From contig NZ_JHXK01000005.1 of NCBI RefSeq assembly GCF_000621745.1, positions 124,001 through 188,000 of the forward strand: a DNA stretch of 64,000 bases. The letters are read 5' to 3'. The position numbers and the translations under genes were made by a program. This stretch comes from Clostridium beijerinckii HUN142 (GTDB lineage Bacteria > Bacillota > Clostridia > Clostridiales > Clostridiaceae). The notes beneath the pieces were generated by a model. It was not told the DNA's origin and searched no databases. It saw nothing but the letters and a program-made list of their open reading frames with translations. This document shows positions 5,737 through 34,217 of this stretch, one piece after another (within the stretch, counting starts at the first letter, position 1; each line of letters starts with the position of its first letter).

Positions 5737-5761
5737 AACCTAACAAATTATATAAAAAACA
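5737..5761 (-). promoter_or_regulatory. conserved upstream box, xylan locus (copy 1)
   Basis: The plus strand reads AACCTAACAAAT followed by TATATAAAAAACA. It is identical at 23 of 25 positions to 28925-28949 upstream of the ABC importer operon. It lies between the SGNH esterase terminator and the ABC exporter/GH115 genes, so it probably belongs to their promoter. A binding site for YesN is proposed by inference. Confidence 0.45.
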
Positions 5762-5817
5762 TTAATAATTATACTTTTTCAATCATTAGTTCATTTTCAA
5801 ATCATAAATTTATACTT

Positions 5818-5856
5818 AAAAAGAGCCGAGCACTAATTTAGCACAACAGCTCTTTT
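5818..5856 (-). terminator. Rho-independent terminator after the SGNH esterase
   Basis: Stem AAAAGAGC/GCTCTTTT with the T run at the minus-strand 3' end, starting 47 bases after the stop at 5903. It separates the esterase from the ABC exporter unit. Confidence 0.75.
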
Positions 5857-5902
5857 AATTTATATTGACATCTCTCAACTTCTTTAAGAAAATTAAAATA
5901 AT

Positions 5903-7618
5903 CTAATTATATCCAAAGCCAAGAATAGTAAAATATTTATCAAAACTATCTTCTGCCATCTTTATTTCTATCCTGTGTTCCATACTGCTTTCCTCTTGGT
6001 ACAAAATAACAGCATTGCAGTGTGTCCATCCTACTACTTTGGGATCTGCTGTTAACACAAACTTACCATCAACATAGACATTTGCCTTACCAAAATCCAT
6101 TCTTCCAGAATCCTTGAATACTAATAGTAAACTTCTGCTACTAACTATTAAACTGAAGCTTTCATTTCCAGATTCAGGTGTATGCATCCAATTGTATGGG
6201 AATACAGGTGTTGGGAATGGATTATCATCCATTTCCACATATTGAAGATCTTCATCTGTTTCTTTAAAACTTCCTTGTTCTATTACTGCACTACATTCAT
6301 TATCCTTCTTATCAATAAGGCGCATCCCTACAAAGGAGTTGCCTATAGCTGGTTCCTTATCTAATGAGACATCCTTCTCATCTAAAGTGCTATTTGCAGT
6401 TTGTTCAAATAAGTATGCAAGACAATCTGCCATTATTGAATGCCCGTCACTTGTAGGATGATAGATGTCATAGAAAAACTGTCTCTTGGTTATAATATTT
6501 CCTTCTTCTTTAGTTAGTTTGAATTGTTCAACTACAGCATCAGATATACTTACCATTGGCAAATCATAAAGCTTTCCAACAGGTGAAAGCCTTTCTTGTA
6601 AATTCCAGTCATTAGCAAATACACTAAATAATAAAATTACTGCCGGCTTATTTTCACTTGAAAGTGTGTTCAAAATCAAACTCTCGTAACATACACCTCT
6701 TGTCTCATCACCTTCATCATTTACTGCAAATTCAACAACTACAATGTCTGGCTTCACCTTTCCGTCTCTAAAAACATCTCTATCATATCTTATCAACCCT
6801 AGCTCAGAAGGTGTCCCACCTACCCCTGCTTTTATAAAATTAATGTTACCGCCTTCATTGCTTCCAAAAAGCTCTTTAAATTTCACATAGGATTTATAGG
6901 CATAACATGCGGTATGAATTGGTTTGGCTCCAGCTCCTTGAGTGATAGACCCACCAATATATGCAATAGTTACATCTTCTCCCCTTTTTGCCTTATCTAT
7001 AGCTGCTTTAAGCCTTCTGTTATTACCAATACTTAAAAGGGATTTTGAAATCATTGAATTATACTTATCACTTTTAAATTCCACTGGTGGATCTATTTCG
7101 ATTTCCGGTACCTTATAACCTTCATTCAAATAAACTTTTACTGTTGCCTCCGCTATTAGTCCTGGTTTTTCAAATTCAAAGGCTATTTTCCCTACTACAT
7201 CATCATCCTTTGACCACTCATAATCTTCAATCTTAAGGATTACCTCAGTTCCATCCTTCTTACAAGGCAGTTTAATTTGAGTTCCACCTCCATATCTGTC
7301 CACTTTTCCATAGTTATGAAATACAAAATCAATATTCCCTGCACCTTCAGATGCTTTTACAGAAACTCCAATACTATGAACCAGTTTGCAGAACCCATCA
7401 TATTCATTTAGCAATGTAAGAATATTTTTATCCTCAACTCCCCCCACAAATTGAGCATCAAAGGCTAGTCTTCCTTCGTCTAAATAAATTTCCTGTGAAG
7501 GTTTTCCATCTAATCGTGCAGTAGCCTCTATAATCTTATCTATCATTATATAAAAACCACTACGCTTTTTTTGTGGATCTTTGGGAGCTTTAGGCCCTGA
7601 CTGTGAATTATTAATCAT
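5903..7618 (-). CDS. SGNH/GDSL-type esterase, probable acetylxylan esterase
   Basis: 571 aa. A beta-rich N-terminal region (~30-190) is followed by an SGNH hydrolase domain: block I YIGGSITQG with nucleophile S224, block III FAVNDEG (N300) and block V DIYHPTSDGH (D384/H387). The two-part layout resembles CE2/CE3-like carbohydrate esterases. Acetyl groups on xylan are a likely target, but the exact substrate cannot be read from sequence. There is no signal peptide, so a cytosolic role on imported oligosaccharides is likely. ATG 7618 has a strong AGGAGGG site. It is probably monocistronic: a terminator follows at 5856-5818, and its own box and cre-like site lie upstream. Confidence 0.85.
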   Translation of the reverse strand: MINNSQSGPKAPKDPQKKRSGFYIMIDKIIEATARLDGKPSQEIYLDEGRLAFDAQFVGGVEDKNILTLLNEYDGFCKLVHSIGVSVKASEGAGNIDFVFHNYGKVDRYGGGTQIKLPCKKDGTEVILKIEDYEWSKDDDVVGKIAFEFEKPGLIAEATVKVYLNEGYKVPEIEIDPPVEFKSDKYNSMISKSLLSIGNNRRLKAAIDKAKRGEDVTIAYIGGSITQGAGAKPIHTACYAYKSYVKFKELFGSNEGGNINFIKAGVGGTPSELGLIRYDRDVFRDGKVKPDIVVVEFAVNDEGDETRGVCYESLILNTLSSENKPAVILLFSVFANDWNLQERLSPVGKLYDLPMVSISDAVVEQFKLTKEEGNIITKRQFFYDIYHPTSDGHSIMADCLAYLFEQTANSTLDEKDVSLDKEPAIGNSFVGMRLIDKKDNECSAVIEQGSFKETDEDLQYVEMDDNPFPTPVFPYNWMHTPESGNESFSLIVSSRSLLLVFKDSGRMDFGKANVYVDGKFVLTADPKVVGWTHCNAVILYQEESSMEHRIEIKMAEDSFDKYFTILGFGYN

Positions 7619-7690
7619 ATTTTTCTATCCCTCCTCTTGAGATAATGTAAAACAGACTGGAAATTTTCCCAGTAGTGTGTTATTATGTTT

Positions 7691-7706
7691 TAGTTTACGT
7701 TTACAA
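7691..7706 (-). promoter_or_regulatory. cre-like site upstream of the SGNH esterase
   Basis: The minus strand reads TTGTAAACGTAAACTA, close to the catabolite-responsive element consensus WTGNAARCGNWWNCA with a mismatch at the end. It lies 73 bases before the start codon. CcpA repression is inferred. Confidence 0.45.
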
Positions 7707-7718
7707 TAAAAAGTATAA

Positions 7719-7734
7719 TTATGATACATCATAA
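7719..7734. promoter_or_regulatory. 16-bp palindrome, possible operator
   Basis: TTATGATACATCATAA is a palindrome with 7-bp arms just upstream of the cre-like site. The core ATGATAC recurs (minus strand) at 8829-8837 in the AraC/GH27 divergent region, so it could be a site for the neighbouring AraC regulator. Weak evidence. Confidence 0.25.
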
Positions 7735-7830
7735 TATTAAAAATAAGCTATACTTATGCGGTCACACTACATAAGTATATTTCACTAAATTAATTCTAAA
7801 ACCATCTTACTAAAATCACTGTCAATTTAA

Positions 7831-7856
7831 AACCTATAAAATTATAGATTTTATCC
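7831..7856 (-). promoter_or_regulatory. conserved upstream box, xylan locus (copy 4, hybrid form)
   Basis: The plus strand carries AACCTA followed by AATTATAGATT. The first part matches the copies at 5737 and 28925; the second matches the copies at 28951 and 34192. It lies about 210-240 bases before the SGNH esterase start, upstream of the cre-like site, which is the same order as at the ABC importer and GH67 promoters. Confidence 0.35.
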
Positions 7857-7914
7857 AAGTTTTTATATATAATTGATTTTCCCTACTAACCATCACCCTT
7901 CTTTCACTTCTAAA

Positions 7915-8757
7915 TCAATTTCTTTCATTACGAAATTGGTATGGTGTAAGCTTTGTATTTTTCTTAAAGCACTTACTAAAATAGTTGCCACAAGAAAATC
8001 CACATTTTAAAGCTATTTCATTTATAGACAACTCTGTGTTGTGAAGCAATTTCATTGCATGTTGCATCCTAATATTTGTAAGATATTTTAATGGATTTAC
8101 TCCTGTTTCCTTAGTAAATTCTCTAGTAAAGTGACTAAGAGAAATTCCTAATCCATCAGCTAATGTGTTAATTCCTTCAAGTTTTGAAAAATCATTTTCC
8201 ATTCTTTCTATGGCTATCCTTGTTCTCATAGAATAATCATCTTGATTATAAGCAACTTTACTACATAACAAGCATAAAAAATGAAAAACTGTTTCACTTC
8301 CTACAAAGGGCTGAATATGCATTCCATTCCTTAAGTTTTCATGAAACTTTAATAAATACTGTATTACACTACTATTTTCAGAAAGTGTTATAATCTTTCC
8401 TGTCTTGTTCACTATCTTATCATAATAGGGCTTTACAGCAGTCCCTTCAAAATGAATATATAATATCTGCCACCCATCCTCATCTAAATCATCTGGACAA
8501 TAATATTTTTCGTCATCTGGAATTTCTACAAAAAACGCCTGTCCTGCCTTAATATTATATTTTTCATCTCCTGTTTCAAAAACTCCATAACCCTTTAAAG
8601 TATATTGAAACAAATATCCCTTTATATCCCTAAGATTATTATCAAAATAATAATCAGAAGTATTCCTCTTTTCAATTCCCATATCCTTCAATTCAAATGG
8701 TGGATTTGGAATTTGGTCAAAAAATACAAAACCATAAGATCCAAATTTATATGACAT
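7915..8757 (-). CDS. AraC-family transcriptional regulator
   Basis: 280 aa. The N-terminal cupin-like sugar-sensing domain (~30-150) includes KGYGVFETGDEKYNIKAGQAFFVEIPD-type beta strands. The C-terminal AraC DNA-binding domain (~180-280) has two helix-turn-helix motifs, ending INEIALKCGFSCGNYFSKCFKK and LTPYQFRNERN. ATG 8757 is preferred to the adjacent TTG 8760 because GAGGTG lies eight bases before it. It is divergent from the GH27 gene and upstream of the SGNH esterase, and probably controls one or both. Confidence 0.9.
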   Translation of the reverse strand: MSYKFGSYGFVFFDQIPNPPFELKDMGIEKRNTSDYYFDNNLRDIKGYLFQYTLKGYGVFETGDEKYNIKAGQAFFVEIPDDEKYYCPDDLDEDGWQILYIHFEGTAVKPYYDKIVNKTGKIITLSENSSVIQYLLKFHENLRNGMHIQPFVGSETVFHFLCLLCSKVAYNQDDYSMRTRIAIERMENDFSKLEGINTLADGLGISLSHFTREFTKETGVNPLKYLTNIRMQHAMKLLHNTELSINEIALKCGFSCGNYFSKCFKKNTKLTPYQFRNERN

Positions 8758-8948
8758 CAAAAATTCACCTCTTTTATCATTTTATCACTCTTGCAGCTTC
8801 AAGAAATGCTGTAATAAACTTAATATAAAGTATCATATTAATATAAAAATGTACAGTATGATTACATCAAAAAAATACGTTATTCATACAAGAGTTTAAT
8901 GGGATACTTAAGTTAATTTATAAATTTTTCATAGAAAGGATTTTTATT

Positions 8949-10256: not shown

Positions 10257-10272
10257 ACTAAAAAACTCAATC

Positions 10273-10341: not shown

Positions 10342-10354
10342 ATATTATTTTATA

Positions 10355-11283: not shown

Positions 11284-12879
11284 TCATCTGCAGCAAAATT
11301 GTTTTCTGTATTGCAAAGGTGTCTTTTCTTTCAGCTGAACGAATTTATTGATGAAATAATCAGTATTGTTATATCCAACTTTCTCTGCAATTTTATAAAT
11401 TTTATCATCACTACGTTTTAGTAGTTCTGCTGCTTTTTCAATTCTATATGCATTTAAGTAATCCTTAAATGATATACTATACTGCTTTTTAAATATTTGA
11501 CCTAAATATGCACTATTAATATAGTATTTTTCACTTAAATATTTTAAACTTAATTTTTCCATGTAGTGTTCTGAAATCTCTTTATCAATTTGATTCAAAA
11601 TCCCTTGAAATGAGTTTTGTCTTAATTGACTTAAATATTCTGCAAATTCTAAAGAAAATGTCTTTAGATGGTTTGCACTTCCTCTGCTTATCATTTGTTC
11701 AAAAGAAACAGAACTAATATACTGCATTACTTCCTCTTGATTTATTTCTGAATCTAATTCTTTTGCAATATTAATAAGATTACATAATAAATAATTTATA
11801 TTGATTTTTATTATATCTAAATTTATTTTATATTCTCTAAAACTCGTATAAATCCTATCAACACACTTTATTATTTCTTCCTTATTATTATCCTCAATTT
11901 CATGAATTAGGTAATCCATGTACTGTTTTCCTGCATTACAGCTTAACTCTTTTCTCTTTGCCATTTCATCATAATAAGTGATATTGTTTTCAATTGAAAA
12001 ATCAGAAAATAACTTAGCCACAGTAGCAGATTTATATGATAATGATATTTCTTCAATACTATTTACTTTCTCACCTATATAAATAAAGAAATCATGTTTT
12101 TGAATCTGTTGCATACCAGATTTAAAGTTTAAAATATATTCACTCTCGTTCATTCCTTTTTCTTTTGCTAATCTTTTATCATAAATAAATCCAATATCAT
12201 AGCATTCTTTTGACTGTCCCATATCAATAATTACATTATAATAATTTTCACCCAACCAACTAATCATGTTTTGATAGAAAATTTGCTGCTGTTCCATTTT
12301 TTCATTCTCTGATATGTTAATTTCATCATTATTACAATAATTAATTTCAATGATCATATATCTGAGCTCAGAAGAAAACATTTGACGCTTTTTAATATAT
12401 TTCAGATTGGAATCATTGCATTTACCATATATAATCTCATTTAGAAATCTATCATATACAACTTTGTCTTTTATTTTCTGTACGGTATTTTGTTTTTTCT
12501 GCTTCATATACTCTTCTTTAAATGAATTTAGCACTTTAACTAGTTCATCTCTTTGAATTGGCTTTAGAATATAATCAGTTACATTACACTTTATCGCTTT
12601 CTTTGCATATTCAAACTCATAATATCCACTCAATACAATTATTTTTATCTCAGTCAATATATTTTCACGCACATACTCAATTAATTCAATTCCATTCATT
12701 TCTGGCATTTTTATATCTACAATGAGTAAGTCCACATCTTTTGTTTCTAATTCCTTTATTGCCTCAATGCCGTTAGCAGCCTCTCCAACAATTTCATAAC
12801 CATATTGTTCCCAATTAATTAGAATTTTTAACCCTTGCCTAATAAATGGTTCATCATCTACTATCAACACCCTTATCAT
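11284..12879 (-). CDS. YesN-type response regulator (REC + AraC HTH)
   Basis: 531 aa. The receiver domain (1-120) has the acidic pair DD at 8-9, phosphoacceptor D55 in LLIVDIKMPE and the KP motif in YILKPIQ. A long middle region (~140-420) is typical of YesN proteins. The C-terminal AraC-type HTH pair (~430-531) includes YLSEKYYINSAYLGQIFKKQY and IAEKVGYNNTDYFINKFVQ. It starts 14 bases after the histidine kinase stop. Such pairs sense an extracellular oligosaccharide and activate Lpl-type importers, so the importer and hydrolase genes here are the probable targets. Confidence 0.93.
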   Translation of the reverse strand: MIRVLIVDDEPFIRQGLKILINWEQYGYEIVGEAANGIEAIKELETKDVDLLIVDIKMPEMNGIELIEYVRENILTEIKIIVLSGYYEFEYAKKAIKCNVTDYILKPIQRDELVKVLNSFKEEYMKQKKQNTVQKIKDKVVYDRFLNEIIYGKCNDSNLKYIKKRQMFSSELRYMIIEINYCNNDEINISENEKMEQQQIFYQNMISWLGENYYNVIIDMGQSKECYDIGFIYDKRLAKEKGMNESEYILNFKSGMQQIQKHDFFIYIGEKVNSIEEISLSYKSATVAKLFSDFSIENNITYYDEMAKRKELSCNAGKQYMDYLIHEIEDNNKEEIIKCVDRIYTSFREYKINLDIIKININYLLCNLINIAKELDSEINQEEVMQYISSVSFEQMISRGSANHLKTFSLEFAEYLSQLRQNSFQGILNQIDKEISEHYMEKLSLKYLSEKYYINSAYLGQIFKKQYSISFKDYLNAYRIEKAAELLKRSDDKIYKIAEKVGYNNTDYFINKFVQLKEKTPLQYRKQFCCR

Positions 12880-12893: not shown

Positions 12894-14708
12894 TTAGAAA
12901 TTATTATTCTGATTCTCTTTAACAAAAGAATTGCTTACCCCTGGCTCATCAAGAAAAATCTGTATTGTAACATCCGTTCCTTCCTTTGGTTTACTGTCAA
13001 TTTCGAACTGCATATTATTATTACAATACATTTGCAAACGCATATAAGTATTAAGTACACCTGTACTTTTGCTGTTATTAAGCATATCTATTTCTGCATT
13101 TCTTAGCTTGTCTCTAATTGAATTCAACTGATCTTCCTCCATACCACTTCCTGTATCTGAAATCTCTATGAATAATCTACTATCATACTTAAATATGGAA
13201 ACATTAATACTAGCATTATGGGATACTTCTTCAATACCATGAACACAAGCATTTTCAACAAAACTTAAAATTGATAGTTTCGGAATCCTTATTCTCTTAC
13301 AATCTCCCATAACATAAAAACTAAAAGTTAATTTTTCCCCAAACCTATATTTTTGTATTTGAAGATAATTTTCCACAAAGAGCATCTCGTCTTCAATTGT
13401 AATATAATCTTCTCCCCAATTTATTGTCTTTCTTAGCAATGCTGATAAATTTTCAATTATTTCTGCTGTTTCACTTTCACCTTTAATTAAACTTCTCATT
13501 CGAATACTTTCAAGAGTATTAAACATAAAATGAGGGTTTACTTGACTTTGAAGTGCTTTTAATTCAGCCTGCTTTTTTGCAAGTTCAAGCCTTTGCTTTT
13601 CTGCATCCCTTTTAAACACTACTTCTATTAATTCCTTAATTCTTAATACCATTAAATTATAGCTGCGAATTAATTTCCCTATTTCATCTTGTCCATCATT
13701 ATACTCTATTGTTGAAAATTCCTCATTTTCTACCTTTCCTAAATATATACCAAGCAGTGTTACCCTATAACCTATAGAGTGAGATACCAAAATAATAATA
13801 ATTGTAGGCAACAATAAATTAAATATCGCTAGTCCAAATAATATTTCTTTTCTCTCTACAATTTTTGATAAAGGACTGACCTCATTTGCCGTGATAATAA
13901 TATTCCATGCTTCATTTGCTACCTTAAATCTAAAAAAGTCGTTTAACTTAACATCCTTTTCTTCTATAGAATCTATTGTGTCAAATTCTTCTGTACCAAC
14001 GTTAGATTTTTTATTAGAAAATAATATATAACTCTTATTACATACATATAAATTATCTTCCATTTTTTCATTTAAAATATCATTTAATATAACATTATAA
14101 TCAACGTCAATTTTCAAAATATTCTCATGCGTTTTGTCGAAGTTGTCTAACTTTCTTGTAATGCTAATTGTTCGTGCAGTATTATTTATTCCATAATTCT
14201 TCCTATTATCATCATAATATACTGATATAGTCATATCTTCATTATTGTTATAGAATTGCCTATACCACTCACTTTGGCGTGTTTCTGATGTTAATTTTCT
14301 AAAATTACTACTATTACTAATAGTATCATTATCGGTATATATAGTAACTTGATATACATGTTGAGAATTATAGTAGTAATTGATTACATTATTTTGTAAT
14401 AAATAATTATATCTTTCATAGTAATCAAGAAGATTATCATACCTTCTTGTAATAAAATCATTTAAAGTTATGTCATTATGCAAATGATTTGATACCAATA
14501 CACAATCATCTAAAACTGAACTCAAATTATATTTAACCCTTTCTATTGCATGCTCCATTGTTATTCTTTGCTCTCTTACCTCGTTACTTTTTATAGTTAT
14601 ATACACTATAGAGTTAGTAACTATCATAGGAATTAGAACACAGAATAAATATATTATTATTAATTTTGATCTAATACTATAATTATTCAATATTTTAAAG
14701 TTCTTCAT
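12894..14708 (-). CDS. YesM-type sensor histidine kinase
   Basis: 604 aa. Membrane helix 1 (~15-38), a ~250-residue extracellular sensor, membrane helix 2 (~289-310), a HAMP-like linker, then the His_kinase domain with phosphoacceptor H393 in QSQVNPHFMFNTLES and an ATPase domain with N-box FVENACVHG and DTGSGM. It is the partner of the YesN protein directly downstream and the likely sensor of xylan breakdown products. GAGGG precedes the ATG. A 230-base gap, with a hairpin, separates it from the upstream GH43 gene. Confidence 0.93.
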   Translation of the reverse strand: MKNFKILNNYSIRSKLIIIYLFCVLIPMIVTNSIVYITIKSNEVREQRITMEHAIERVKYNLSSVLDDCVLVSNHLHNDITLNDFITRRYDNLLDYYERYNYLLQNNVINYYYNSQHVYQVTIYTDNDTISNSSNFRKLTSETRQSEWYRQFYNNNEDMTISVYYDDNRKNYGINNTARTISITRKLDNFDKTHENILKIDVDYNVILNDILNEKMEDNLYVCNKSYILFSNKKSNVGTEEFDTIDSIEEKDVKLNDFFRFKVANEAWNIIITANEVSPLSKIVERKEILFGLAIFNLLLPTIIIILVSHSIGYRVTLLGIYLGKVENEEFSTIEYNDGQDEIGKLIRSYNLMVLRIKELIEVVFKRDAEKQRLELAKKQAELKALQSQVNPHFMFNTLESIRMRSLIKGESETAEIIENLSALLRKTINWGEDYITIEDEMLFVENYLQIQKYRFGEKLTFSFYVMGDCKRIRIPKLSILSFVENACVHGIEEVSHNASINVSIFKYDSRLFIEISDTGSGMEEDQLNSIRDKLRNAEIDMLNNSKSTGVLNTYMRLQMYCNNNMQFEIDSKPKEGTDVTIQIFLDEPGVSNSFVKENQNNNF

Positions 14709-14938: not shown

Positions 14939-16750
14939 TTATATTATAATATTAATTGAAACATTTGCTAATTGGGGATTCAAGTCTTTGTCCTCTGTTA
15001 AATCTAGTACTGGATAACCATCTATATCAAAATGTACTCGACGAATTCCACTACTTCTTGGTGCATCAACTCCAGGTCTTGCATGATAAAGATTCCATAC
15101 AATTCCATCATCGTCAGTTACATATGAGTTATGTCCTGTTCCATATTCTCCGGGAACACTTCTAGCAGTTAAAAGTGGATAGTTCCCCTTTGTCCAACTG
15201 TTTGGATTTAATAAATCTGCATCTTTTTCAGCAGTTAAAAGTCCTATAACATAAGTCGAATCTATAGCTGCACTTGAAACGCTTAAAAATATCTTTTCAT
15301 CTTTAATAAGAGCAAATGGCCCTTCATCAACAAAGGTATGGTTATTTGCCCAACCATATTCTGGCTTGGAAATAATTACTAGATCACTTATTAATTTCCA
15401 CGGTTCTTTTGGATCAATCTTTGCAATATAAAGCCATGCTCCAAGATCTACAGGCAAAAACTGGCGTTGTGACCAACAAACATAGTAATCACTGCCCCAT
15501 TCAAATACGGTCATATCAAGAGATATAGTTTTTCCCGCTTCACATAATTCTGTGCCATCTTTCTTTACAATTCGCTGTGGTCTTGACCAATCTGCAGCAC
15601 ACATTGGATCACCATCTTTTTTGAGCTTCATAAAATGAGATTCTACGCAGAAAAATTCGCCTGTTGTTGCGGCATGAAAAATATATAATTCACCTTCTAT
15701 GATATGAAATTCTGGTGCCCATAATAAATTCTTGATATCATCATATGTGTCTGAATCTAGTATTAATGCTTCTTCTGCTGTTACAAGCTCAGGTATACTG
15801 TCTGCTTCTCTCATATATAATGTATGATTTTCATCAGCATCATTAGTTGCAATAAAATAATACTTTCCGTTCCATTTTATAGCACATGGATCTGCACGAT
15901 TAATAGCAATTGGAAATTCATAATGATCTTGATGTATAGTGCCTGTAATCCTATATGTTCCTTCTTTATTCCAATCTATTTCACCTGTATTCCAATCTAT
16001 AGTCTTTAAGTCAGTTGTCCCATCACTATAAATAGCAGTTGCTTTTACATCTTTTAAATCCTCTTTAGATGTCACTTTCACACTGCTTGGAATTTCAATT
16101 TTGATATTTGTTGGAGCAGTTAGTTTACAAATAATTCTATGAGCTATTTCTGTAGATACATTTATTACATTGCGTGGTACTATCCCTTCTATATCACTCT
16201 TTACACTATCTATCGCAAAAGCTTCTGTTCTTTCTGGCATTGAAGCATCCTCTAGATTTGTAATATTAGTGATGGAATTCTTATAATAGTTTCCACTTTC
16301 ATCACTCCAATGAATAAAATAAGTTTTCATTTCTTCATTATATTCGCATGCCACATCATTTACATATGCATCACTTTTTAAATTAATTAAACCTATTTCT
16401 TTATATTGCAATAAATCTGATGATGTAAATAATAAAACAGAGCCTTTACTTTGACTATCATTTTCTCCATCTTGTTTTGTGCGTACAGCTATAACTCCAA
16501 AAGTATTATCTTTCATATGAAAAATATAAGGATTTTTCAAACTCTTTGCATTAAGAGATCCGTCCTCATTTTCAGTTGCTTTAGCAAATAAAACACCTGA
16601 ATTATGATTTAAATCTTCAAACTTTATTCTATCATCGCTATAGGCAAGATGCATACTATATGCTAACTTAGTAGAATATATGTCATCTTCTTGTGGAGCT
16701 CTAGTGTAGCAAAGTATATAGTTAGCAGTTTTTTTCATTTCTGATATCAT
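14939..16750 (-). CDS. chimeric GH43 protein: beta-propeller-like N-terminus, Ig-like linker, GH43
   Basis: 603 aa, no signal peptide. Residues ~1-170 are blade-like repeats (YILCYTRAP, SGVLFAKA, NPYIFHMKDNTFGVIAVRT) suggesting a second, partial propeller. Residues ~215-275 look like a bacterial Ig-type domain (VKVTSKEDLKDVKATAIYSDGT, EGTYRITGTI). Residues ~280-603 are a GH43 catalytic domain with base region RADPCAIKWNGKYYF and general acid candidate in WAPEFHI. GH43 covers beta-xylosidases, arabinofuranosidases and exo-arabinanases; side-chain arabinose removal is plausible. It lies 57 bases after the upstream GH43 gene in the same direction. Domain limits are estimated by eye. Confidence 0.8.
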   Translation of the reverse strand: MISEMKKTANYILCYTRAPQEDDIYSTKLAYSMHLAYSDDRIKFEDLNHNSGVLFAKATENEDGSLNAKSLKNPYIFHMKDNTFGVIAVRTKQDGENDSQSKGSVLLFTSSDLLQYKEIGLINLKSDAYVNDVACEYNEEMKTYFIHWSDESGNYYKNSITNITNLEDASMPERTEAFAIDSVKSDIEGIVPRNVINVSTEIAHRIICKLTAPTNIKIEIPSSVKVTSKEDLKDVKATAIYSDGTTDLKTIDWNTGEIDWNKEGTYRITGTIHQDHYEFPIAINRADPCAIKWNGKYYFIATNDADENHTLYMREADSIPELVTAEEALILDSDTYDDIKNLLWAPEFHIIEGELYIFHAATTGEFFCVESHFMKLKKDGDPMCAADWSRPQRIVKKDGTELCEAGKTISLDMTVFEWGSDYYVCWSQRQFLPVDLGAWLYIAKIDPKEPWKLISDLVIISKPEYGWANNHTFVDEGPFALIKDEKIFLSVSSAAIDSTYVIGLLTAEKDADLLNPNSWTKGNYPLLTARSVPGEYGTGHNSYVTDDDGIVWNLYHARPGVDAPRSSGIRRVHFDIDGYPVLDLTEDKDLNPQLANVSINIII

Positions 16751-16807
16751 TTTTAATCCATCTCCTTAATTTATAATTTCCAAATAGCATTGTATAGTTA
16801 TTATCTC

Positions 16808-18346: not shown

Positions 18347-18362
18347 ATTAGAACCTCCTCTC

Positions 18363-19856: not shown

Positions 19857-19919
19857 ATATTATCTTCTTACCTTTCTTACTTACATACTTCAAGTATATT
19901 GCTAAAACTTACTGTGCTT

Positions 19920-19950
19920 GAAGGAGTCGCTGATATCCAGCCACTCCTTC
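19920..19950. repeat. perfect inverted repeat between GH10 and GH39
   Basis: GAAGGAGT...ACTCCTTC with inner GCTG/CAGC and an ATATC loop, a compact 31-base hairpin in the 213-base gap. No T tract follows on either strand, so it could be an mRNA-stabilising or processing hairpin at the 3' end of the xylanase message, or an operator. Confidence 0.55.
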
Positions 19951-20069
19951 ATGTTAATTCTTCTTACGTTATAATCCATCAAAGTTATAATTTTAAGTAT
20001 ATATTGATTAGAATAACAATTTATTTTCTCTTTATATTTCATACTACTATTTACATTCAGTATCTAAAG

Positions 20070-22340: not shown

Positions 22341-22459
22341 CCTATATCTCTCCTTATTACAATATTCATATAAATAGTTTCAATTGAAAATTAACTCCTC
22401 TTATGTTTAATGTAATATCTAACTTTGTATTTTGAGAAATGGTTATATATTAAAGTATA

Positions 22460-23998: not shown

Positions 23999-24010
23999 TT
24001 CTGCTTCCCT

Positions 24011-25147
24011 CTACTTCCAAATTCTATAATTTCCACTTAACGCCAAGAAGGCGAATAAATATAAACAGTTATCATAATATCTTCTTTCACCTGTCCTAAG
24101 AGGTATATTCCAAAATAAATCAACACATTCTTTTCTATACATCCCTTTGCTTGCTAAAGAAGCCATTGCGTTAGTTGCTATAATTGCTACTGGATGAAGG
24201 GCTTTTTCTTCAATAATTGTGCCATCTATTTCATATATTAAATCCGCTTTACCTTTAACTGTTTCACAGAAAAAAGTTTGAATTTTATCTGCACACTCAC
24301 ATTCCCACTCTGAACTTTCAAACCATTCGTAAGATAAGCCTAAATTAGCTGCTACTCTATAAGCATCACTATAGAATCTTTCATGATGGCCTTTATCCCA
24401 AGGTGAATCACATGGTACTCCATCATACTTCGAATACTCTGGTGCGAGTCCTGTAATAGGATGACAAGCTTTTTTTAGATACTCTCTGCTACACTGCGCT
24501 GCCTCTTTCCAAAATTCATGATCTTCTTCATTACACCAAAGAGAAAATAATTCATAAAAATGTGGTAAATGATATGATGGATCAGTAAAATGAAGATTTG
24601 GAACAAACTTTATTAATTTATTACTTGGCTCCCACATTGGATCTCCTGGCTCTTTTTCTCCTTTGTGGATACATTCATGAAGAAGATCTCTTGCCTCTTT
24701 TGAATAATTAAAAATTCCCTTTCCATCTCCCCATCTATTTGCCGCAAAAAATAACGCCATTGCAAAATATTCTTCTCCATCAGGTGCAGGTCCATAAGCA
24801 TTCTTCTCTCCACTTAGCTTAACAGACCATGCAAAATATCCTTTATTTAGACCTTCGCCCATATACATATAAGTTTTTGCCCATTTCCATAGCCGATCGA
24901 ATTCTCCTTTCATATTCCTTTGAACACACATCATCATGGCATAAGACATGCCCTCTGTTCTGGCATCATTATTACCTGTATCAACAAAGTAGGCCATATC
25001 ATCCCCAACGGGATGATATAACCTTTCTGATTCATTTCCATAAAAAATTGTTCTATAAATATCTTCTAATCTTTCTTCTATCTCTCTGTCTGAATGACCA
25101 CATTCTTTAAAGACATTATGATAATTATCCGTTTTATAAGCACTCAT
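24011..25147 (-). CDS. GH8 reducing-end xylose-releasing exo-oligoxylanase
   Basis: 378 aa, matching the length and motif spacing of Bacillus halodurans Rex (EC 3.2.1.156). Numbered from ATG 25147: general acid E65 in NNDARTEGMSYAMM, D123 in GPAPDGEEYF and base D261 in FYSDAYRVAANLG. It removes xylose from the reducing end of xylo-oligosaccharides, complementing GH39 and GH43, which work from the other end. ATG 25147 is chosen over ATG 25153 because AAGGAG lies eight bases before the former and only two before the latter. Cytosolic; 61 bases after the permease gene. Confidence 0.93.
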   Translation of the reverse strand: MSAYKTDNYHNVFKECGHSDREIEERLEDIYRTIFYGNESERLYHPVGDDMAYFVDTGNNDARTEGMSYAMMMCVQRNMKGEFDRLWKWAKTYMYMGEGLNKGYFAWSVKLSGEKNAYGPAPDGEEYFAMALFFAANRWGDGKGIFNYSKEARDLLHECIHKGEKEPGDPMWEPSNKLIKFVPNLHFTDPSYHLPHFYELFSLWCNEEDHEFWKEAAQCSREYLKKACHPITGLAPEYSKYDGVPCDSPWDKGHHERFYSDAYRVAANLGLSYEWFESSEWECECADKIQTFFCETVKGKADLIYEIDGTIIEEKALHPVAIIATNAMASLASKGMYRKECVDLFWNIPLRTGERRYYDNCLYLFAFLALSGNYRIWK

Positions 25148-25208
25148 TTGCATTGCTCCTTGTATAGTATAGTCTGTAAATTAAATTTTTTATTTCACTT
25201 ATTATCTT

Positions 25209-26105
25209 CTATTCCTTTACCCCTCCAATAGTAAGTCCAGATACAAAATATCTTTGTAAGAATGGATATAAGCATACTATTGGTAAAGCAGTTACGATTG
25301 TAATAGCTGCTCGAAGAGATTTTGGTGTAACCATATTACCTGCGTTCTTAACCATATCTATTGTTCCTGAGCTACCTTGTTGTGTTGATGCTGATAATAC
25401 TTTCATAAGCTCATATTGTAATGTTGTTAGTGATGGGCTTGCTGAATTATAAAGCATTGCATCAAACCATGCATTCCATTGGTCTACAGCCACGAATAGT
25501 GCAACAGTTGCAAGTACTGGTTTACACAAAGGTAATATGATTTGAATAAAAATCCTAAAATCACCTGCTCCATCAATTTTTGCTGATTCAACTAAGCTAT
25601 CTGGAAGCCCGTTTATGAAAGTTCTAATAACAATCATATTAAAAGCACTAATTAAACCTGGTAAAATATATACTAAAAAATTATTTGTTAAGTGAAGATA
25701 TTTCATCAATACATAAACTGGAATCATACCTCCACCAACATACATTGTTAGCACATAGAAAAATGAAAGTTGCTTTTTAAATAGGTAGTCTTTTCTACTA
25801 AGAACATACGCAAGCATTGCTGTTAAAAATACTTGCAGTGCTGTACCAATTACAGTTCTTGAAACCGATATAAATGCAGCTTGTATCAAGTTCTGATTAT
25901 GAAATACTGTTTGATAATTTTTTAGTGTAAACATTCTTGGCAACAGATATATTCCGCCACGCACAGAATCAATTCCATCATTAAACGAAACAGCTAGTGT
26001 ATTTAAAATTGGATACAATGTTACAATTATAAATATTACCATAAACATACCTATAAGACTGTCAAAAAAAATATCACTTTTACTTCTTCTCCTAAAACCT
26101 ACCAT
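25209..26105 (-). CDS. LplC/YtcP-type sugar ABC permease
   Basis: 298 aa with six hydrophobic segments and the EAA loop ESAKIDGAGDFRIFIQIILPLCKP. The C-terminus ends QRYFVSGLTIGGVKE, a hallmark of this branch (RYFVkGltiGavKG). It forms the membrane channel with the next permease upstream. AAGGAGGAG precedes the ATG. No ATPase gene is in the locus, so a shared MsmK-like ATPase elsewhere is presumed. Confidence 0.94.
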   Translation of the reverse strand: MVGFRRRSKSDIFFDSLIGMFMVIFIIVTLYPILNTLAVSFNDGIDSVRGGIYLLPRMFTLKNYQTVFHNQNLIQAAFISVSRTVIGTALQVFLTAMLAYVLSRKDYLFKKQLSFFYVLTMYVGGGMIPVYVLMKYLHLTNNFLVYILPGLISAFNMIVIRTFINGLPDSLVESAKIDGAGDFRIFIQIILPLCKPVLATVALFVAVDQWNAWFDAMLYNSASPSLTTLQYELMKVLSASTQQGSSGTIDMVKNAGNMVTPKSLRAAITIVTALPIVCLYPFLQRYFVSGLTIGGVKE

Positions 26106-26119
26106 TTGATGCTCCTCCT

Positions 26120-27079
26120 TTAGAATAACCTTTCTTCACCAGCTGATTTTGCGAATCGATTTGCTATATATATTAACGTTACACTGATTACGCTTTTAAA
26201 TATGCCTGCTGCTGTAGCTAATGAATAGTTATTTAAGCTAATACCATATTTTAGTACAAAAATATCTATTGTTTGCGATACATCTTGAACAAGACCATTT
26301 CCAAGTAGGTATTGCACCTCGAAACCTGCGTTAACGATATTCCCAATGTTCATTATTAGTAATATAAATATTGTTGATTTTATGCCTGGTAATGTAACAT
26401 GAAGCATCTTTTTAAATCTTCCCGCTCCATCTATTTCAGCTGCTTCATATAAATCTGGATTAATAGAAGTGATAGCTGCAAGATATATAATGCTTCCCCA
26501 TCCTACTTCTTTCCAAACATTTGTTAATCCTACTATTCCCCAGAAATATTTTGTATCAGCAAAAAAATTTATAGGTTGACTTATGATATGTAATCCAACT
26601 AAAATTTGATTAATAATACCTGTTTCTGGTGAGAGAACATCTGCAACAATTCCTGTTACAATTATCCATGAAAGAAAATGAGGTAAATAAGAAATTGTTT
26701 GTACAAATTTTTTAGCTAACATTAACCTAACTTCATTCAATAATAAAGCAAAGCCAATAGAACATATAAAACCTAATGTTAAATTAATTAAACTCATGCA
26801 TAAAGTATTTCTTATAACCTTTATAAAATTTGGATCAGAAAATAATATTTTGAATTGATCAAGACCACACCAAGTTTGGTTAAATAAACTTTTTGCAGGT
26901 TTAAATTTCTGAAATGCCATAAGCCAACCGACAAGAGGTGTATAATTAAATATGAATGTATATATTACAAATGGAATAGACATTAAAATTAACGTTTTTT
27001 GTTTTTTCATATTCTTCATTAAATTATTTTTTGTTTTTATTTCTGGATTTGGATTAATATCTTTTACTTCTAATTCCAT
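26120..27079 (-). CDS. LplB-type sugar ABC permease
   Basis: 319 aa. A cytoplasmic N-terminal extension (~1-28) is followed by six membrane helices and the EAA loop YEAAEIDGAGRFKKMLHVTLPGIKS. N-terminal features IPFVIYTFIFNYTPLVGWLMAFQKFKP are typical of LplB/YtcP importers. It ends 14 bases before the partner permease. With the lipoprotein upstream it should import xylo-oligosaccharides or aldouronates. Confidence 0.94.
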   Translation of the reverse strand: MELEVKDINPNPEIKTKNNLMKNMKKQKTLILMSIPFVIYTFIFNYTPLVGWLMAFQKFKPAKSLFNQTWCGLDQFKILFSDPNFIKVIRNTLCMSLINLTLGFICSIGFALLLNEVRLMLAKKFVQTISYLPHFLSWIIVTGIVADVLSPETGIINQILVGLHIISQPINFFADTKYFWGIVGLTNVWKEVGWGSIIYLAAITSINPDLYEAAEIDGAGRFKKMLHVTLPGIKSTIFILLIMNIGNIVNAGFEVQYLLGNGLVQDVSQTIDIFVLKYGISLNNYSLATAAGIFKSVISVTLIYIANRFAKSAGEERLF

Positions 27080-27151
27080 GTTCAGCCTCCCTTTATATGT
27101 TTTTAAAAAATTTTTAAGAATAGGGATCTAAACAGATCCCCATTTTATATA

Positions 27152-28828
27152 TCAGTTGCCTTTACCGAATTTCTCCACTCTTCTTTTCACTTCTTTAGTA
27201 AGAGCATCTTCATATGCCTTTACATCTGCTTGAGTTGTAAGCGTAGTTTGATATTGGTTCCAAGTAGAATCGAATTCATTTGGCTTAACCATGATAACCT
27301 TAGGAAGCCATTGCTTTTTGATGTCGTCCATCTTTTGCATTGCCATTTGTTCTGGCTGATCAGCCGACCATGTGCTACATGCTGAGTAAATTGGATACCA
27401 AGGTTCATTTTCTTCTGGAACCTGATTAAGGAACTCTGTCCAATTCTTAAAGCCATATGCATTTAAAACCTTTTTATCTGAATCTGTTAATGTTGCTTCA
27501 AATTCAGTCTGCTGTTGCTCTGGTAATATAGTATTAATTCCATCATCTAAATAACCTGCTGTATATTGAGGTAGATATGTGTACATACACATGTTAGCAT
27601 TTACCCAATCTTGGTTTCTTGCGTTTTCTCTTTGCTCATCTGTTCTATAGAATAAACCTTTATCATCCACTTTATAATCCTTGTCTTTTTCTCCCCAGTA
27701 TCTCAATGTTAGAACATCTGGAGATAATAAATCATTAATAGCCTTTAATGCACCATCTACATCTTTACAGCTTTTTGAAATTCCTATACCTCCACCTGCG
27801 TTAAATGCTGGCTTAGCTCTATATTGAGCCTTAACATTAGGATCTATTGTTAAACCTAATGGAACCCAAGTTCTCTCATCTAAGTGTTGTTGTTTTAATG
27901 AATTTTCTGCAGTTAAGAACTCCCAATGCTGATCTACCATTCCAAGAACTCTGCCTGTAGAAAGTTTCGATGTATATTGATCATAAGATGCTGTAAATGT
28001 TTCCTGATCTATAATTCCTTTATTATATTCATCATTTAATTTTTTGAAGTATTTTTGTGCTTCCGGAATTGTATTATAATTCTTAGCTGTCAATGTAGAC
28101 TTATCTATAATAGCCTTTCCATCATTAGGATACCCTGCTAAAAATTGAGGTGGGTTTTCCAAACAGAAATATCTCCAATCATCACTTAGAACTTCAAATC
28201 CTATGGTTGGTTGTCCATTTACTTGTGGATTTGCAGCTTTATATTTCTCGATTAAATCAAAATATTGGTCTATTGTTGTGATCTTAGGATAGTTGGCCCA
28301 TTCTAATACTGCTTTTTGAATCCAAAACGCTTCATCATTATGTTGCACTTGTGTATCTTTATTTCGAATCTGTCCAAATTGTTGTATAAAATAAATATGT
28401 CCATCTTCTTTTCTTAATTTTTCCCACTGGGTAGATGTTAAAAAGTTTTTAATATTAGGATACTTATCAATTTTATCTTCCAATGGAATGAGCGCACCAG
28501 CATCTACTAATGCTTGTGTTCCATCTCCTCCATCTATAATATCCGGATACTCACCGCCCGCAATCATTACTCCAATTCTTTCTTTAGCCGTTTGACCAGT
28601 AAGCCATTGCTCATTTATTTTTGCTCCAATCTTTTCAGCTATAACATTTTTAAGTCTGTTATTATCAGGAATTTCTTTTCCTGCTGTTGCAAAAAAGGCT
28701 GAAAATTCTTTTATTTTCCCATCACCTGATGCACTTGTTTCTTGGCTGCTACCACCACAACCTGTGAGTAAGCTCACGGCTAAAGTTCCTGCTAAAAGCA
28801 TACTTACAATTAACTTGCTCTTTCTCAT
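27152..28828 (-). CDS. sugar-binding lipoprotein of the Lpl-type importer
   Basis: 558 aa. Lipoprotein signal MRKSKL...LLTGC with lipobox Cys at 24, then a Ser/Gly-rich linker and a large extracellular solute-binding domain of the LplA/YtcQ size class. It captures oligosaccharides at the outer face of the membrane. It is first in the operon importer-GH8-GH43. A cre-like site (28871) and the conserved box (28925-28973) lie within 145 bases upstream, so it is the best candidate for direct YesN activation with CcpA repression. Ligand inferred from context. Confidence 0.93.
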   Translation of the reverse strand: MRKSKLIVSMLLAGTLAVSLLTGCGGSSQETSASGDGKIKEFSAFFATAGKEIPDNNRLKNVIAEKIGAKINEQWLTGQTAKERIGVMIAGGEYPDIIDGGDGTQALVDAGALIPLEDKIDKYPNIKNFLTSTQWEKLRKEDGHIYFIQQFGQIRNKDTQVQHNDEAFWIQKAVLEWANYPKITTIDQYFDLIEKYKAANPQVNGQPTIGFEVLSDDWRYFCLENPPQFLAGYPNDGKAIIDKSTLTAKNYNTIPEAQKYFKKLNDEYNKGIIDQETFTASYDQYTSKLSTGRVLGMVDQHWEFLTAENSLKQQHLDERTWVPLGLTIDPNVKAQYRAKPAFNAGGGIGISKSCKDVDGALKAINDLLSPDVLTLRYWGEKDKDYKVDDKGLFYRTDEQRENARNQDWVNANMCMYTYLPQYTAGYLDDGINTILPEQQQTEFEATLTDSDKKVLNAYGFKNWTEFLNQVPEENEPWYPIYSACSTWSADQPEQMAMQKMDDIKKQWLPKVIMVKPNEFDSTWNQYQTTLTTQADVKAYEDALTKEVKRRVEKFGKGN

Positions 28829-28870: not shown

Positions 28871-28884
28871 TTGTAAACGTTTCT
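28871..28884. promoter_or_regulatory. cre-like site upstream of the importer operon
   Basis: TTGTAAACGTTTCT matches the catabolite-responsive element core TGTAAACGTTT, 43 bases before the lipoprotein start. Glucose repression through CcpA is the expected effect. Confidence 0.55.
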
Positions 28885-28924
28885 TCTTACAATGTAAAGT
28901 TTATCATCATTATATTTAGTCAAC

Positions 28925-28973
28925 AACCTAACAAACTATATAAAAAATACCAAAAATTATAGATTCTAAATTT
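28925..28973 (-). promoter_or_regulatory. conserved two-part upstream box, importer promoter (copy 2)
   Basis: Part one (28925-28949) repeats the box at 5737 with two differences in 25. Part two (28949-28971, core AAAAATTATAGA) repeats 34191-34213 upstream of GH67 with two differences in 23. It carries both elements in full and lies 97-145 bases before the start, a suitable position for an activator. Confidence 0.5.
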
Positions 28974-30613: not shown

Positions 30614-30674
30614 ACTTAACTACTCCCTTTATTAATATAAATTGAATATTATTCAAAATTAAAAATATAAACTA

Positions 30675-31757: not shown

Positions 31758-31921
31758 AGCTTATTCTTAATCCTTTCTCTTTAAATATAATTTATTGTTA
31801 ACATATAATTTGTCATTAAAAAACATTCTTCTATTCAACTTTAATAACAATACATTATACTTCATTACATAAATGATATATTGAATTCACTTACACTACT
31901 AATAGATATCCGTAAATTAAT

Positions 31922-34030
31922 TTAAGTATATATTTTCCTTCCTTTCTCATCCTCTATTCCAGACATTCTATAGAAATACGTATTGATTTGGTCTCTCCAA
32001 TCTCTTGCACTATCTAACTGTATATAAAGACGTTCAATAACCTGATTGTATATATTTCCATCTATAATCCCCTCCAACTCCTTCCACTTCTCAATAAACT
32101 TCTCTACTTCTTCAAAACCTTCAAAATGAGTATCATAAATATGTTGTATTACAGTTTTTCCCGATGTCAACACATGCATATATGGAACATGGTGGAAAAA
32201 TAGCAATAATTCATCTGGGCAAGTTTCTAAATTATTATATATATTCTTAAGAGGTTCATTATATTGGCTCGTATAACCTGTTCCATCTTCTAAGGTACGA
32301 TCAATTCCTATACCCTTGCAATCTGACCTATGATATGTTCCCCAAAGAGAAAACTCATAACCATCTACATCTGGGCCATAGTGATTCCCTGGTGATACCA
32401 TCCATCCGATTCCTAATGGCGACGTATATTTTTCATAAGTTTCCCATGACTTCATCAGTATATAGCACACATTTTTCATAACTAGCGTATTGTCTCCTAA
32501 TGTAAGTTGAATCCATTCTTGTACTATTTCTTCACAACTGATATCACTATTCCAAGCAAGACGTCCATACCCATATAAATTAGCTTGTGCCAGAAAATGT
32601 CCTGTCCAATTTTCATCATTTCCTACATTGACTATTGCTGCAATCCCCTTAATTCTTTTAGCAACACTATTTTCATTTGCATTGTCACTATTCGCATACG
32701 TTTGAGTGCCTAACACCTGTTTCCACCAAGGGATTAGGAAGCACACATGTTTTTGTTGACCCGTGTATTCTTGCGTTATTTGGAACTCCATTAATTTATT
32801 AGTTTTATCCATTGCTCCAAATAGTGGCGATACAGGCTCTCTAACTTGAAAATCCATTGGACCGTTTTTAATTTGCAAATATACGTTATCTAAAAATTGT
32901 CCATCTAATGGTGTAAAGCAGTCATACGCAGCCTTAGCTCTATCAATTGTGTTATCTCTCCAATCCTGTTTGCAGTTATATACAAAACATCTCCATATTA
33001 ATAGTCCTCCATACGGTGCTAAGGCACTTGCAAGCATATTTGCACCCTCTGCATGATTACGTCCATAAGTAAAAGGTCCTGGCCTTCCTTCTGAATCGGC
33101 TTTTACCATAAAACCTCCTAAGTTGGGAATTATGCTGTATACAAATTGAACTTTCTTCTTCCACCATTCCCCTACGTTTTTGTCTAGTGGATCTGAAGTT
33201 TTCAAGTCTCCAATGGTAATTGGTGCAGCAAAATTTATGCTAATGTAAGTTTTTATACCCCATCTGCCTAATATCTCACTTATTACTTTAACAATGTTTA
33301 TTTTATTATCTATAAGATATGTTTCTTCTCTATGGACATTTGTATTATTAATAACTACTCCGTTGATACCAATTGAAGAGAGTATCCTTGCATAATCATT
33401 AATTCTTCCTAAATCATCTGCTTCCTTATAATCATCATTAAATGCTTTCCTCAGAGTCTCGTTAGTCGCTGTGATGCCTCCTATTACTTCCATTATTTCT
33501 TTCATAATATTCTTATTTCTGCAGCTTTCAAATAAAATTGAACCACCTGCGAAACCACGTTCAATAGTTCCATCAATGTTATCCCAGTTATTTATCAGCC
33601 TTATAGCATTCTTTGGGTTATCTATTACTTCTATCTTCTCAATCTCCTTATTTTGCCCAAAAAGACGTAATAAAGCAAATACTCCATAAAGAATTCCATT
33701 ATCATCTTTAGCCGAAATAGTAATCCTATGTTTTTTCTGAGAAAGAATTTCATGCTTTATTTTATACCCTTCAATAGCTAACCTTTCATCATCTGATTTT
33801 TCTAATTTTATATATTTATCCCCGCAAGCTTCTTCCTTTTCGTATATCTTCTGCTCCTCATTTATATCGTGAATTTGTTCAAATGCGTTCTTCAATTCGC
33901 ATAGTGCAGATTCTACAATTTGACTTCTATAAGAAATCACAATATTTTCAAGATACTCTTTATAGTTGTTGTTTTTAATTTCTCTGTGGCTCAGCCAACA
34001 AGAATACATCTTACTATTTTTATTTACCAT
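31922..34030 (-). CDS. aguA: GH67 alpha-glucuronidase
   Basis: 702 aa, cytosolic. GH67 signatures: DNIDGTIERGFAGGSI, GINGVVINNTNV, GFMVKADSEGRPGPFTYGR (acid E314), LAPYGGLLIWRCFVY, and LDGQFLDNVYLQIKNGPMDFQVREPVSPLFGA (catalytic acidic pair region 377-398). It removes (4-O-methyl-)glucuronic acid from the non-reducing end of aldouronic acids, complementing GH115. About 30 extra residues (~172-205) appear between the FAGGSI motif and the RINDYARIL segment compared with the spacing I know for AguA. AAGGAGA precedes the ATG. Upstream are its own box and cre-like site. Confidence 0.94.
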   Translation of the reverse strand: MVNKNSKMYSCWLSHREIKNNNYKEYLENIVISYRSQIVESALCELKNAFEQIHDINEEQKIYEKEEACGDKYIKLEKSDDERLAIEGYKIKHEILSQKKHRITISAKDDNGILYGVFALLRLFGQNKEIEKIEVIDNPKNAIRLINNWDNIDGTIERGFAGGSILFESCRNKNIMKEIMEVIGGITATNETLRKAFNDDYKEADDLGRINDYARILSSIGINGVVINNTNVHREETYLIDNKINIVKVISEILGRWGIKTYISINFAAPITIGDLKTSDPLDKNVGEWWKKKVQFVYSIIPNLGGFMVKADSEGRPGPFTYGRNHAEGANMLASALAPYGGLLIWRCFVYNCKQDWRDNTIDRAKAAYDCFTPLDGQFLDNVYLQIKNGPMDFQVREPVSPLFGAMDKTNKLMEFQITQEYTGQQKHVCFLIPWWKQVLGTQTYANSDNANENSVAKRIKGIAAIVNVGNDENWTGHFLAQANLYGYGRLAWNSDISCEEIVQEWIQLTLGDNTLVMKNVCYILMKSWETYEKYTSPLGIGWMVSPGNHYGPDVDGYEFSLWGTYHRSDCKGIGIDRTLEDGTGYTSQYNEPLKNIYNNLETCPDELLLFFHHVPYMHVLTSGKTVIQHIYDTHFEGFEEVEKFIEKWKELEGIIDGNIYNQVIERLYIQLDSARDWRDQINTYFYRMSGIEDEKGRKIYT

Positions 34031-34121
34031 GTTAATTAATCTCCTTTATATATTTGTTTTGAGAATTAGTGATGTTCAAACTGAAGGTTTGCTATAAAGT
34101 TTAGTTAATTATTTAATAATA

Positions 34122-34137
34122 TACAACGTTTTCACTA
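34122..34137. promoter_or_regulatory. cre-like site upstream of GH67
   Basis: The minus strand carries TGAAAACGTTGTAT, matching the TGNAARCG half of the CcpA element well and the other half poorly. It lies 92 bases before the GH67 start. Confidence 0.35.
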
Positions 34138-34190
34138 CAATATTAAGGCTTCATGGAAAGAATTTAAACATGTATAATTATAGTATTTAT

Positions 34191-34217
34191 ACAAAAAATT
34201 ATAGAATCTAAATATTT
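34191..34217 (-). promoter_or_regulatory. conserved upstream box, GH67 promoter (copy 3)
   Basis: The plus strand reads ACAAAAAATTATAGAATCTA followed by AAT. It matches 28949-28971 at 21 of 23 positions. It lies about 160 bases upstream of GH67, before the cre-like site as at the importer promoter. Confidence 0.45.

Follow-up and report, generated by a model that had tools for sequence, protein, structure and literature searches.

The DNA stretch analysed here (the window, 64,000 nucleotides of contig NZ_JHXK01000005.1 of Clostridium beijerinckii HUN142) is part of a 6.1-Mb genome in 53 contigs. It carries a xylan locus with a YesM/YesN two-component system and, upstream of four transcription units, copies of a tandem repeat that is the predicted operator of this system. 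The genes for the importer, a substrate-binding protein (SBP) and two permeases, occupy positions 14939-28828 on the minus strand together with those for glycosidases of families GH8, GH43, GH10, GH39, GH43 and GH43. Collinear with them and downstream lie the genes for the sensor histidine kinase YesM (12894-14708, minus strand; Pfam His_kinase and HATPase_c) and for the response regulator YesN (11284-12879, minus strand; Pfam Response_reg, HTH_18 and HTH_AraC), the proposed activator. Also on the minus strand, Pfam names a GH67 alpha-glucuronidase (31922-34030), an SGNH/GDSL esterase-like protein (5903-7618) and two MsbA-like ABC exporter half-transporters (1733-5324). They are accompanied by a GH115 gene truncated by the window start (1-1650, minus strand), with 88% and 90% identity to the GH115 proteins of the relatives G048 and G006, the former of which is recognised as GH115 by Pfam. 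An AraC-family one-component regulator is encoded directly upstream of the SGNH gene (7915-8760), and Pfam also names two esterase-like genes in the window. The SBP has no Pfam match at E<=0.001, and NCBIfam has no match for the SBP or the SGNH protein; the NCBIfam matches listed for YesN, YesM and the exporters all fail to reach the curated cut-offs. With importer, GH67, GH10, GH43 and a two-component regulator together, the window has the make-up of an aldouronate/glucuronoxylan cluster.

The four sites are on the minus strand, and each consists of two 14-bp half-sites (about TATAATTTNTTAGG) in direct repeat, exactly 21 bp apart. The predicted operator of the importer operon, TATAATTTTTGGTAttttttaTATAGTTTGTTAGG (28927-28961), has its proximal half at 28927-28940 and its distal half at 28948-28961 (TATAATTTTTGGTA/TATAGTTTGTTAGG). 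The others were found upstream of GH67 (34169-34203, TATAATTTTTTGTA/TATAATTATACATG), upstream of the exporter pair and GH115 (5739-5773, TATAATTATTAATG/TATAATTTGTTAGG) and upstream of the SGNH gene (7833-7867, TATAAAAACTTGGA/TATAATTTTATAGG), the last being the weakest of the four. A first-pass annotation of this DNA had described two kinds of boxes preceding different xylan units, always on the transcribed side, and the position of the four tandems agrees with this. Its identities were reproduced on recomputation: 23 of 25 bases between 5737 and 28925 (next best match of the word in the window, 18) and 21 of 23 between 28949 and 34191 (next best, 17). Both sequences are thus real, but they are the proximal (5737-type) and the distal (28949-type) half of one operator rather than two separate elements, and both are present not only in region 7831-7856, as had been remarked, but in all four sites. 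The common feature of all four is the 21-bp tandem.

When the spacers were compared pairwise (n=6), the best 25-mers of the exporter-SBP and SBP-GH67 pairs had 23 identities each, a value that none of 30 shuffles reached (maxima 21 and 20). For the remaining pairs the best 25-mers had 19, 19, 19 and 20 identities and did not exceed 30 shuffles, so that the SGNH copy is inconspicuous by pairwise identity alone. A half-site matrix built from the four sites gave them 23.3-28.3 bits, the next best 21-bp pair in the 64 kb reaching 14.4. Since this matrix is fitted to its own sites, independent tests are needed, and these were provided by the model R2, built from relatives only (see below). The lone half-site is not enriched in the genome (23 matches versus 29 in the reversed control) or in the window (23 versus 31.7 expected), and a degenerate tandem pattern with 2 mismatches gave 580 matches versus 571 in the reversed control. 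It takes the full profile to separate the sites. The linkers between the halves fall into two classes, a T-run (importer, exporter/GH115) and an A-run (GH67, SGNH, and the GH11 and GH10 sites described below; in the window see 28941-28947 and 34183-34189), and these classes may confer different affinities or bends.

At an ortholog cut-off of E<=1e-60, YesN is present in 15 of 68 same-genus genomes, including that of HUN142. The 14 YesN-bearing relatives have 23 SBP matches, and 22 upstream regions were scored, L036 (a partial match at a contig end) being omitted. Among the 16 SBP orthologs (at least 56% identity), 11 have the 21-bp operator with scores of 19.6-28.9, each above its own 100 shuffles, at 82-140 nt before the importer gene start. 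The scan detected no 21-bp operator at the remaining five (L024, L026, L027, L030, L031), and none of six SBP paralogs (30-32% identity) was at operator level, the best being L035 with 14.1. By inspection, L026 and L027 (G047 and G009) carry a 22-bp version, and the model places a site just upstream of the partial SBP copy L036 in G032. Taken together, each of the 14 relatives with YesN carries a tandem site at an importer promoter, detected in 11 by the blind 21-bp scan, in G032 by the model, and in G047 and G009 by inspection. In L029 and L162 (G036 and G031), the operator before the SBP gene is accompanied by a second copy, located between this gene and that of the first permease.

For the genome-wide search, a sequence-only profile (R1) of 19 sites, four of them from the window, was run over the 68 genomes with the stricter filters that apply to searches of more than 40 genomes. 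At E<1e-3 it gave 31 sites, 27 in 13 of the 15 genomes with YesN and four in three of the 53 others; two of these four are in G031, a 78%-complete metagenome-assembled genome (MAG) with the importer operon. At >=22.5 bits, a cut picked post hoc, the ratio is 13/15 to 1/53 (Fisher p 4.5e-11, kinship ignored). The second profile (R2) comprises 29 sites, all taken from relatives. In the genome of HUN142, five sites reach 34.6, 28.5, 28.4, 26.6 and 25.3 bits with it (E 1.6e-7 to 1.3e-4), and the sixth has 16.1 bits (E 0.11). The importer operator is the best in the genome (1.6e-7), and the E-values are 1.3e-5 for exporter/GH115, 1.5e-5 for GH67 and 1.3e-4 for SGNH. The fifth site, which is in neither model, was found at C2:439256-439294, 297 nt before the gene for a GH11 xylanase, followed by a formylglycine-generating-enzyme (FGE)-sulfatase-like gene. 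Such a protein with the FGE fold is encoded after the boxed GH11 in four genomes (L147:3025-3855 on C2 of HUN142, L135:1717-2598, L137:4086-4916 and L296:1385-2230).

R2 was scanned over 33 genomes, namely the 15 with YesN, G031, and 17 of the remaining 52 YesN-less genomes as controls. At E<1e-3 it detected 38 sites, 37 in 12 of the 15 YesN-bearing genomes and one in the MAG G031, which has the importer operon; the 17 controls have none at this level (best 0.003). Two training sites (G017 and one of G036) were missed by R2 itself, and therefore the site counts are lower bounds. Outside the training set are 11 of the 38 sites, the five of HUN142 and six elsewhere. The latter precede a GH67 operon with a chemoreceptor gene (G048; letters identical to a trained site), an importer fragment (G032), a GH10 gene (G011), a GH11 gene (G022) and, in G056, a chemoreceptor gene and a 144-aa open reading frame (ORF) without a Pfam match. 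In G007, which has GH67 but lacks a YesN match, no site was found near GH67 or anywhere at E<=0.05. Thus, the sites track the presence of YesN (R2, 12/15 versus 0/17; R1, 13/15 versus 3/53; kinship ignored), and the motif search in related Clostridium genomes, suggested in the first-pass annotation, finds the boxes kept at importer promoters and limited to five sites in the genome of HUN142 instead of being scattered.

To look beyond the genus, the best 80 of 120 SBP loci were taken; 14 loci of the Clostridium set (L152-L163, L171, L226) and L229, with a short upstream region, were dropped, L212 (Clostridium sp. E02) was retained, and 65 distant loci, some near-identical, were tested. A 21/22-bp tandem is present in 22 of them (p<=0.02, with 100 dinucleotide shuffles per locus; about one expected), and the sense strand scores above the antisense strand in 51. 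The best pairs above 14 bits comprise nine at 22 bp and one each at 21, 23 and 34 bp, with none at other spacings between 15 and 40. The 22-bp spacing prevails in Lachnospiraceae and the 21-bp spacing in Paenibacillus and some Clostridiales. R2 gave seven matches at E<=2 over 67 distant loci, and the five best precede the importer gene by 92-230 nt. Upstream of this gene, 20 of 22 boxed loci have a yesN homolog (35-51% identity; the match is partial in L211 and L221), as compared to 27 of 44 unboxed loci.

Outside the importer, conservation at the units of the window is uneven. In several of them the GH67 site is further upstream, ahead of added genes that precede GH67. These include a chemoreceptor gene in G006, G048, G032 and G011 (Pfam on L136, L299, L139 and L145), which in G032 and G011 is followed by uxuA and a mannitol-dehydrogenase-like gene, and ORFs between site and GH67 in G030 and G020. 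The chemoreceptor, a Cache-domain methyl-accepting chemotaxis protein, is encoded by the first gene after the operator at L136:570-2342, L139:4990-6744, L145:569-2332, L297:619-2379 and L299:2478-4238, with GH67 downstream in four of the five, and this suggests a joint induction of chemotaxis and xylan use. The GH67 unit in the window has no chemoreceptor gene. In G048 a site is located 83 nt directly before GH115. The exporter halves between operator and GH115 in the window (1733-5324) are an odd partner for a xylan regulon; in the exporter orthologs of G030 and G056, one TGA was reported inside the match.

The position of the operators relative to putative promoters was analysed in 34 operators, many of which are orthologs. 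A -10-like hexamer (at least 5/6 identical to TATAAT) starts 21-23 nt after the operator in 18 of them; 1000 mononucleotide shuffles gave a mean of 3.6 and a maximum of 10 at this distance, and a maximum of 12 in any 3-nt window. With a spacer of 16-18 nt, the -35 element directly adjoins the proximal half-site, and it is TTGTTG in 9 of 12 importer promoters. The predicted minus-strand importer promoter in the window (28898-28926) consists of TTGTTG (28921-28926), a 17-nt spacer and TAAACT (28898-28903). Further predicted -10 elements on this strand are TAATAT for GH67 (34140-34145, 23 nt after the operator), TAAGAT for SGNH (7804-7809, 23 nt) and TAAATT for exporter/GH115 (5711-5716, 22 nt). 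Since the -10 element lies 21-23 nt downstream, activation from beside the -35 is suggested by the computed positions, and class II activation by AraC-type proteins has this geometry. We propose that YesM senses xylan oligosaccharides and that a YesN dimer would bind the operator with one AraC-type helix-turn-helix (HTH) domain per half-site, the halves being 21 bp or two helical turns apart. Given a weak -35 immediately next to the proximal half-site and a -10 21-23 nt past that half-site, YesN in its phosphorylated form would act as a class II-type activator and bring RNA polymerase to the promoter. The predicted regulon comprises five operators, those of the importer and glycosidase operon, GH67, SGNH, exporter/GH115 and the GH11 xylanase on another contig. 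Terminator-like matches between 10000 and 29900 (7 versus 6.7 in shuffles) show no excess that would split importer and yesN genes, so that yesMN at the end of the importer operon may provide positive feedback, if there is one transcript. In Caldicellulosiruptor bescii, tandem-repeat sites were reported upstream of promoter elements for each of the four single-component AraC-type regulators and for three of the five two-component ones, which suggested that they are activators (PMC8579813, in the part compared here).

A further claim of the first-pass annotation concerned sites of the catabolite-responsive element (cre) type, the targets of CcpA, between box and gene at three of the four units. 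Such sites exist, though they are weak, with one or two mismatches to the generally known cre consensus. AAGAAACGTTTACA (28872-28885, minus strand, two mismatches) lies downstream of the importer promoter. TGTAAACGTAAACT (7692-7705, minus strand, one mismatch) precedes SGNH beyond the 110 nt range tested, and the match before GH67 (34121-34134, plus strand, two mismatches) is alone not above chance. The exporter site has no cre-like match within 110 nt after the box. The window as a whole has no clear excess of matches with up to two mismatches over mononucleotide shuffles (133 versus 135.6 for a 14-mer pattern, 113 versus 98.9 for a 16-mer). All 12 importer promoters tested have a cre-like match (at most two mismatches) in the 110 nt that follow the box (mean 1.0, maximum 4 in 200 shuffles). 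In nine of them it is of the AAACGTTTACA type and lies 37-41 nt after the box, and a GGAAAGCGCTTTCY element is found at the corresponding place in four importer promoters of Paenibacillus. Among the other boxed promoters only 4/20 have a match (shuffle mean 1.6, maximum 6). Thus, it is plausible that CcpA controls the importer operon, and general CcpA co-regulation beyond this promoter is unsupported. At the importer, CcpA would be able to block transcription on preferred sugars by way of the conserved cre-like site, which closely follows the predicted start point.

Judging from these sequence comparisons, we consider it highly probable that the four sites are operators of the local YesM/YesN system, with tandem binding, class II-type activation and a regulon of five operators. 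That one regulator serves them all, as had been proposed, is supported by the five sites in the genome, the GH11 target and the held-out GH67, GH10 and GH11 targets in relatives. YesN combines a phosphorylatable receiver with an AraC-type HTH according to Pfam and residues D8, D9 and D55, which are invariant in 23 aligned sequences, and it has a cognate kinase, YesM. The sites are tandem direct repeats about two turns apart, in fixed orientation upstream of the promoter. The earlier assignment to YesN also appears the most likely one in view of the co-occurrence, the position of yesN upstream of the importer gene in the 20 boxed distant loci and the conserved HTH. AraC-family proteins bind similar direct repeats, and the one-component regulator gene 7915-8760 adjoins one of the sites. 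Nevertheless, its product is very improbable as the shared regulator and was rejected as such, since it is not present wherever the sites are: an ortholog (E<=1e-45) was found in only 6 of 68 genomes and not in the box-bearing G011, G022, G030, G048, G017, G036 and G059. It is a good deal less improbable, but still unlikely, that the boxes are bound by a different regulator of the YesN or AraC type, encoded elsewhere in the genome and inherited along with the xylan genes, while the local YesMN controls something else. The first YesN search, which collected any regulator with a similar domain, gave 150 candidates in the genome of HUN142, and in G022 a second, different YesMN pair itself carries a box (L144:2247-7142, with its own sugar-binding protein and the operator). 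Because of this boxed second pair, cross-talk or cross-regulation between YesMN pairs is hinted at. Such a co-inherited regulator is opposed by the position of yesN, which, besides the distant loci, lies no more than 20 kb from the importer gene in 12 of 15 genomes of the genus (it is on another contig in G036 and G056, and in G032 it adjoins a second, unboxed importer gene, the boxed copy being on another contig), and by the strong conservation of the YesN HTH as compared to the middle region (identity of 77% versus 33% in G036, 76% versus 36% in L191 and 54% versus 21% in L165).

Finally, the similarity could stem from a recent duplication of promoter DNA or from the AT-richness of promoters, without selection for a regulator. 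The sites are AT-rich and the half-site alone is not enriched, but spacing and both halves persist while the linkers switch between T-run and A-run, the 21/22-bp version is present in distant genera, and the genome has only five sites, to which the held-out xylanase targets are added; this explanation is therefore hardly probable.

Several observations weigh against operators of YesN. The boxes are kept at orthologous importer promoters, but an operator was detected in only 1 of 9 SGNH orthologs (at least 72% identity; 0/8 at 33-36%), in only 2 of 5 exporter orthologs (at least 79% identity; none of 16 paralogs scanned) and, within 900 bp, at a single one of the 16 other GH67 loci. YesN is encoded in G017, G047 and G009, which have no R2 site at E<1e-3, and G054 and G042, without a YesN match, nonetheless have one partial R1 site each at E<1e-3. 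Among the distant loci, 27 have yesN upstream but no recognised box, and no box was recognised in the Bacillus, Niallia, Streptococcus, Enterococcus and Globicatella loci of the 65-locus scan. The paralog L035, at 14.1, exceeds its own shuffles (12.2). Further, the relatives' sites were picked by a matrix or model that included the window sites, many tested promoters are orthologs, and the co-occurrence ignores phylogeny.

With YesN as the preferred regulator, it is tempting to speculate that its operator design, two TATAATTT-type halves spaced by 21/22 bp and abutting the -35, is an old xylan switch common to Clostridium, Lachnospiraceae and Paenibacillus, which in Clostridium has been extended to scattered xylanases (GH10, GH11, GH115), glucuronate catabolism, the MsbA-like exporter and the Cache-domain chemoreceptor. 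This broader proposal is tentative, although we regard it as quite conceivable; if true, swimming would be coordinated with digestion and uptake through a single xylan sensor. Plant-degrading Bacillota commonly have YesN-type regulators, and a defined 35-bp operator with five genome sites would represent a compact, testable regulon, aid YesN regulon prediction in other genomes and explain the co-induction of xylanases far from the locus. Apart from the xylan genes, the window contains at 43370-51898 two large proteins with choline-binding repeats (45535-48615 and 49913-51898, the latter with amidase and glucosaminidase domains), adjoined by a choline-kinase-like gene (43370-45220).

In all, this is a well-supported regulon prediction for a known kind of gene control. 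No title or abstract announcing the operator was found in the open literature, subscription papers being mostly outside its coverage; YesN is not mentioned in the part of the review PMC10766802 compared here, and the parts of the literature compared give no operator sequence for a xylan YesN-type regulator. XydS/XydR of Clostridium cellulolyticum (PMC3572039, in part) likewise has a response regulator (532 aa) with receiver and AraC-type HTH that controls hemicellulase genes, and the XydR effector domain binds two upstream regions in vitro. Unlike the present locus, it controls the cellulosomal xyl-doc cluster, and the same part of the paper lists short shared repeats with no identifiable family consensus; a 21-bp TATAATTT tandem was not seen there. 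The XynDC-XynEFG genes of Geobacillus (PMC4194401, in part) likewise place a two-component system next to an ABC importer, for xylotriose, a likeness seen in the gene layout. The aldouronate cluster of Paenibacillus sp. JDR-2 (PMC4765114, in part) also combines importer, GH67, GH10, GH43, regulators and a predicted cre, and shares its regulation with a distal xylanase; a diverged 21-bp version of the operator is seen at the importer promoters of four other Paenibacillus loci. BxgRS of C. bescii (PMC8579813, in part) is likewise a two-component system beside a CUT1 importer, presumed to be for glucuronoxylan oligosaccharides, with two conserved tandem-repeat sites. The likeness is taken from the description of the system. 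BxgRS is described as local control with two sites, whereas here five operators are predicted, including those of the GH11, GH115 and SGNH units.

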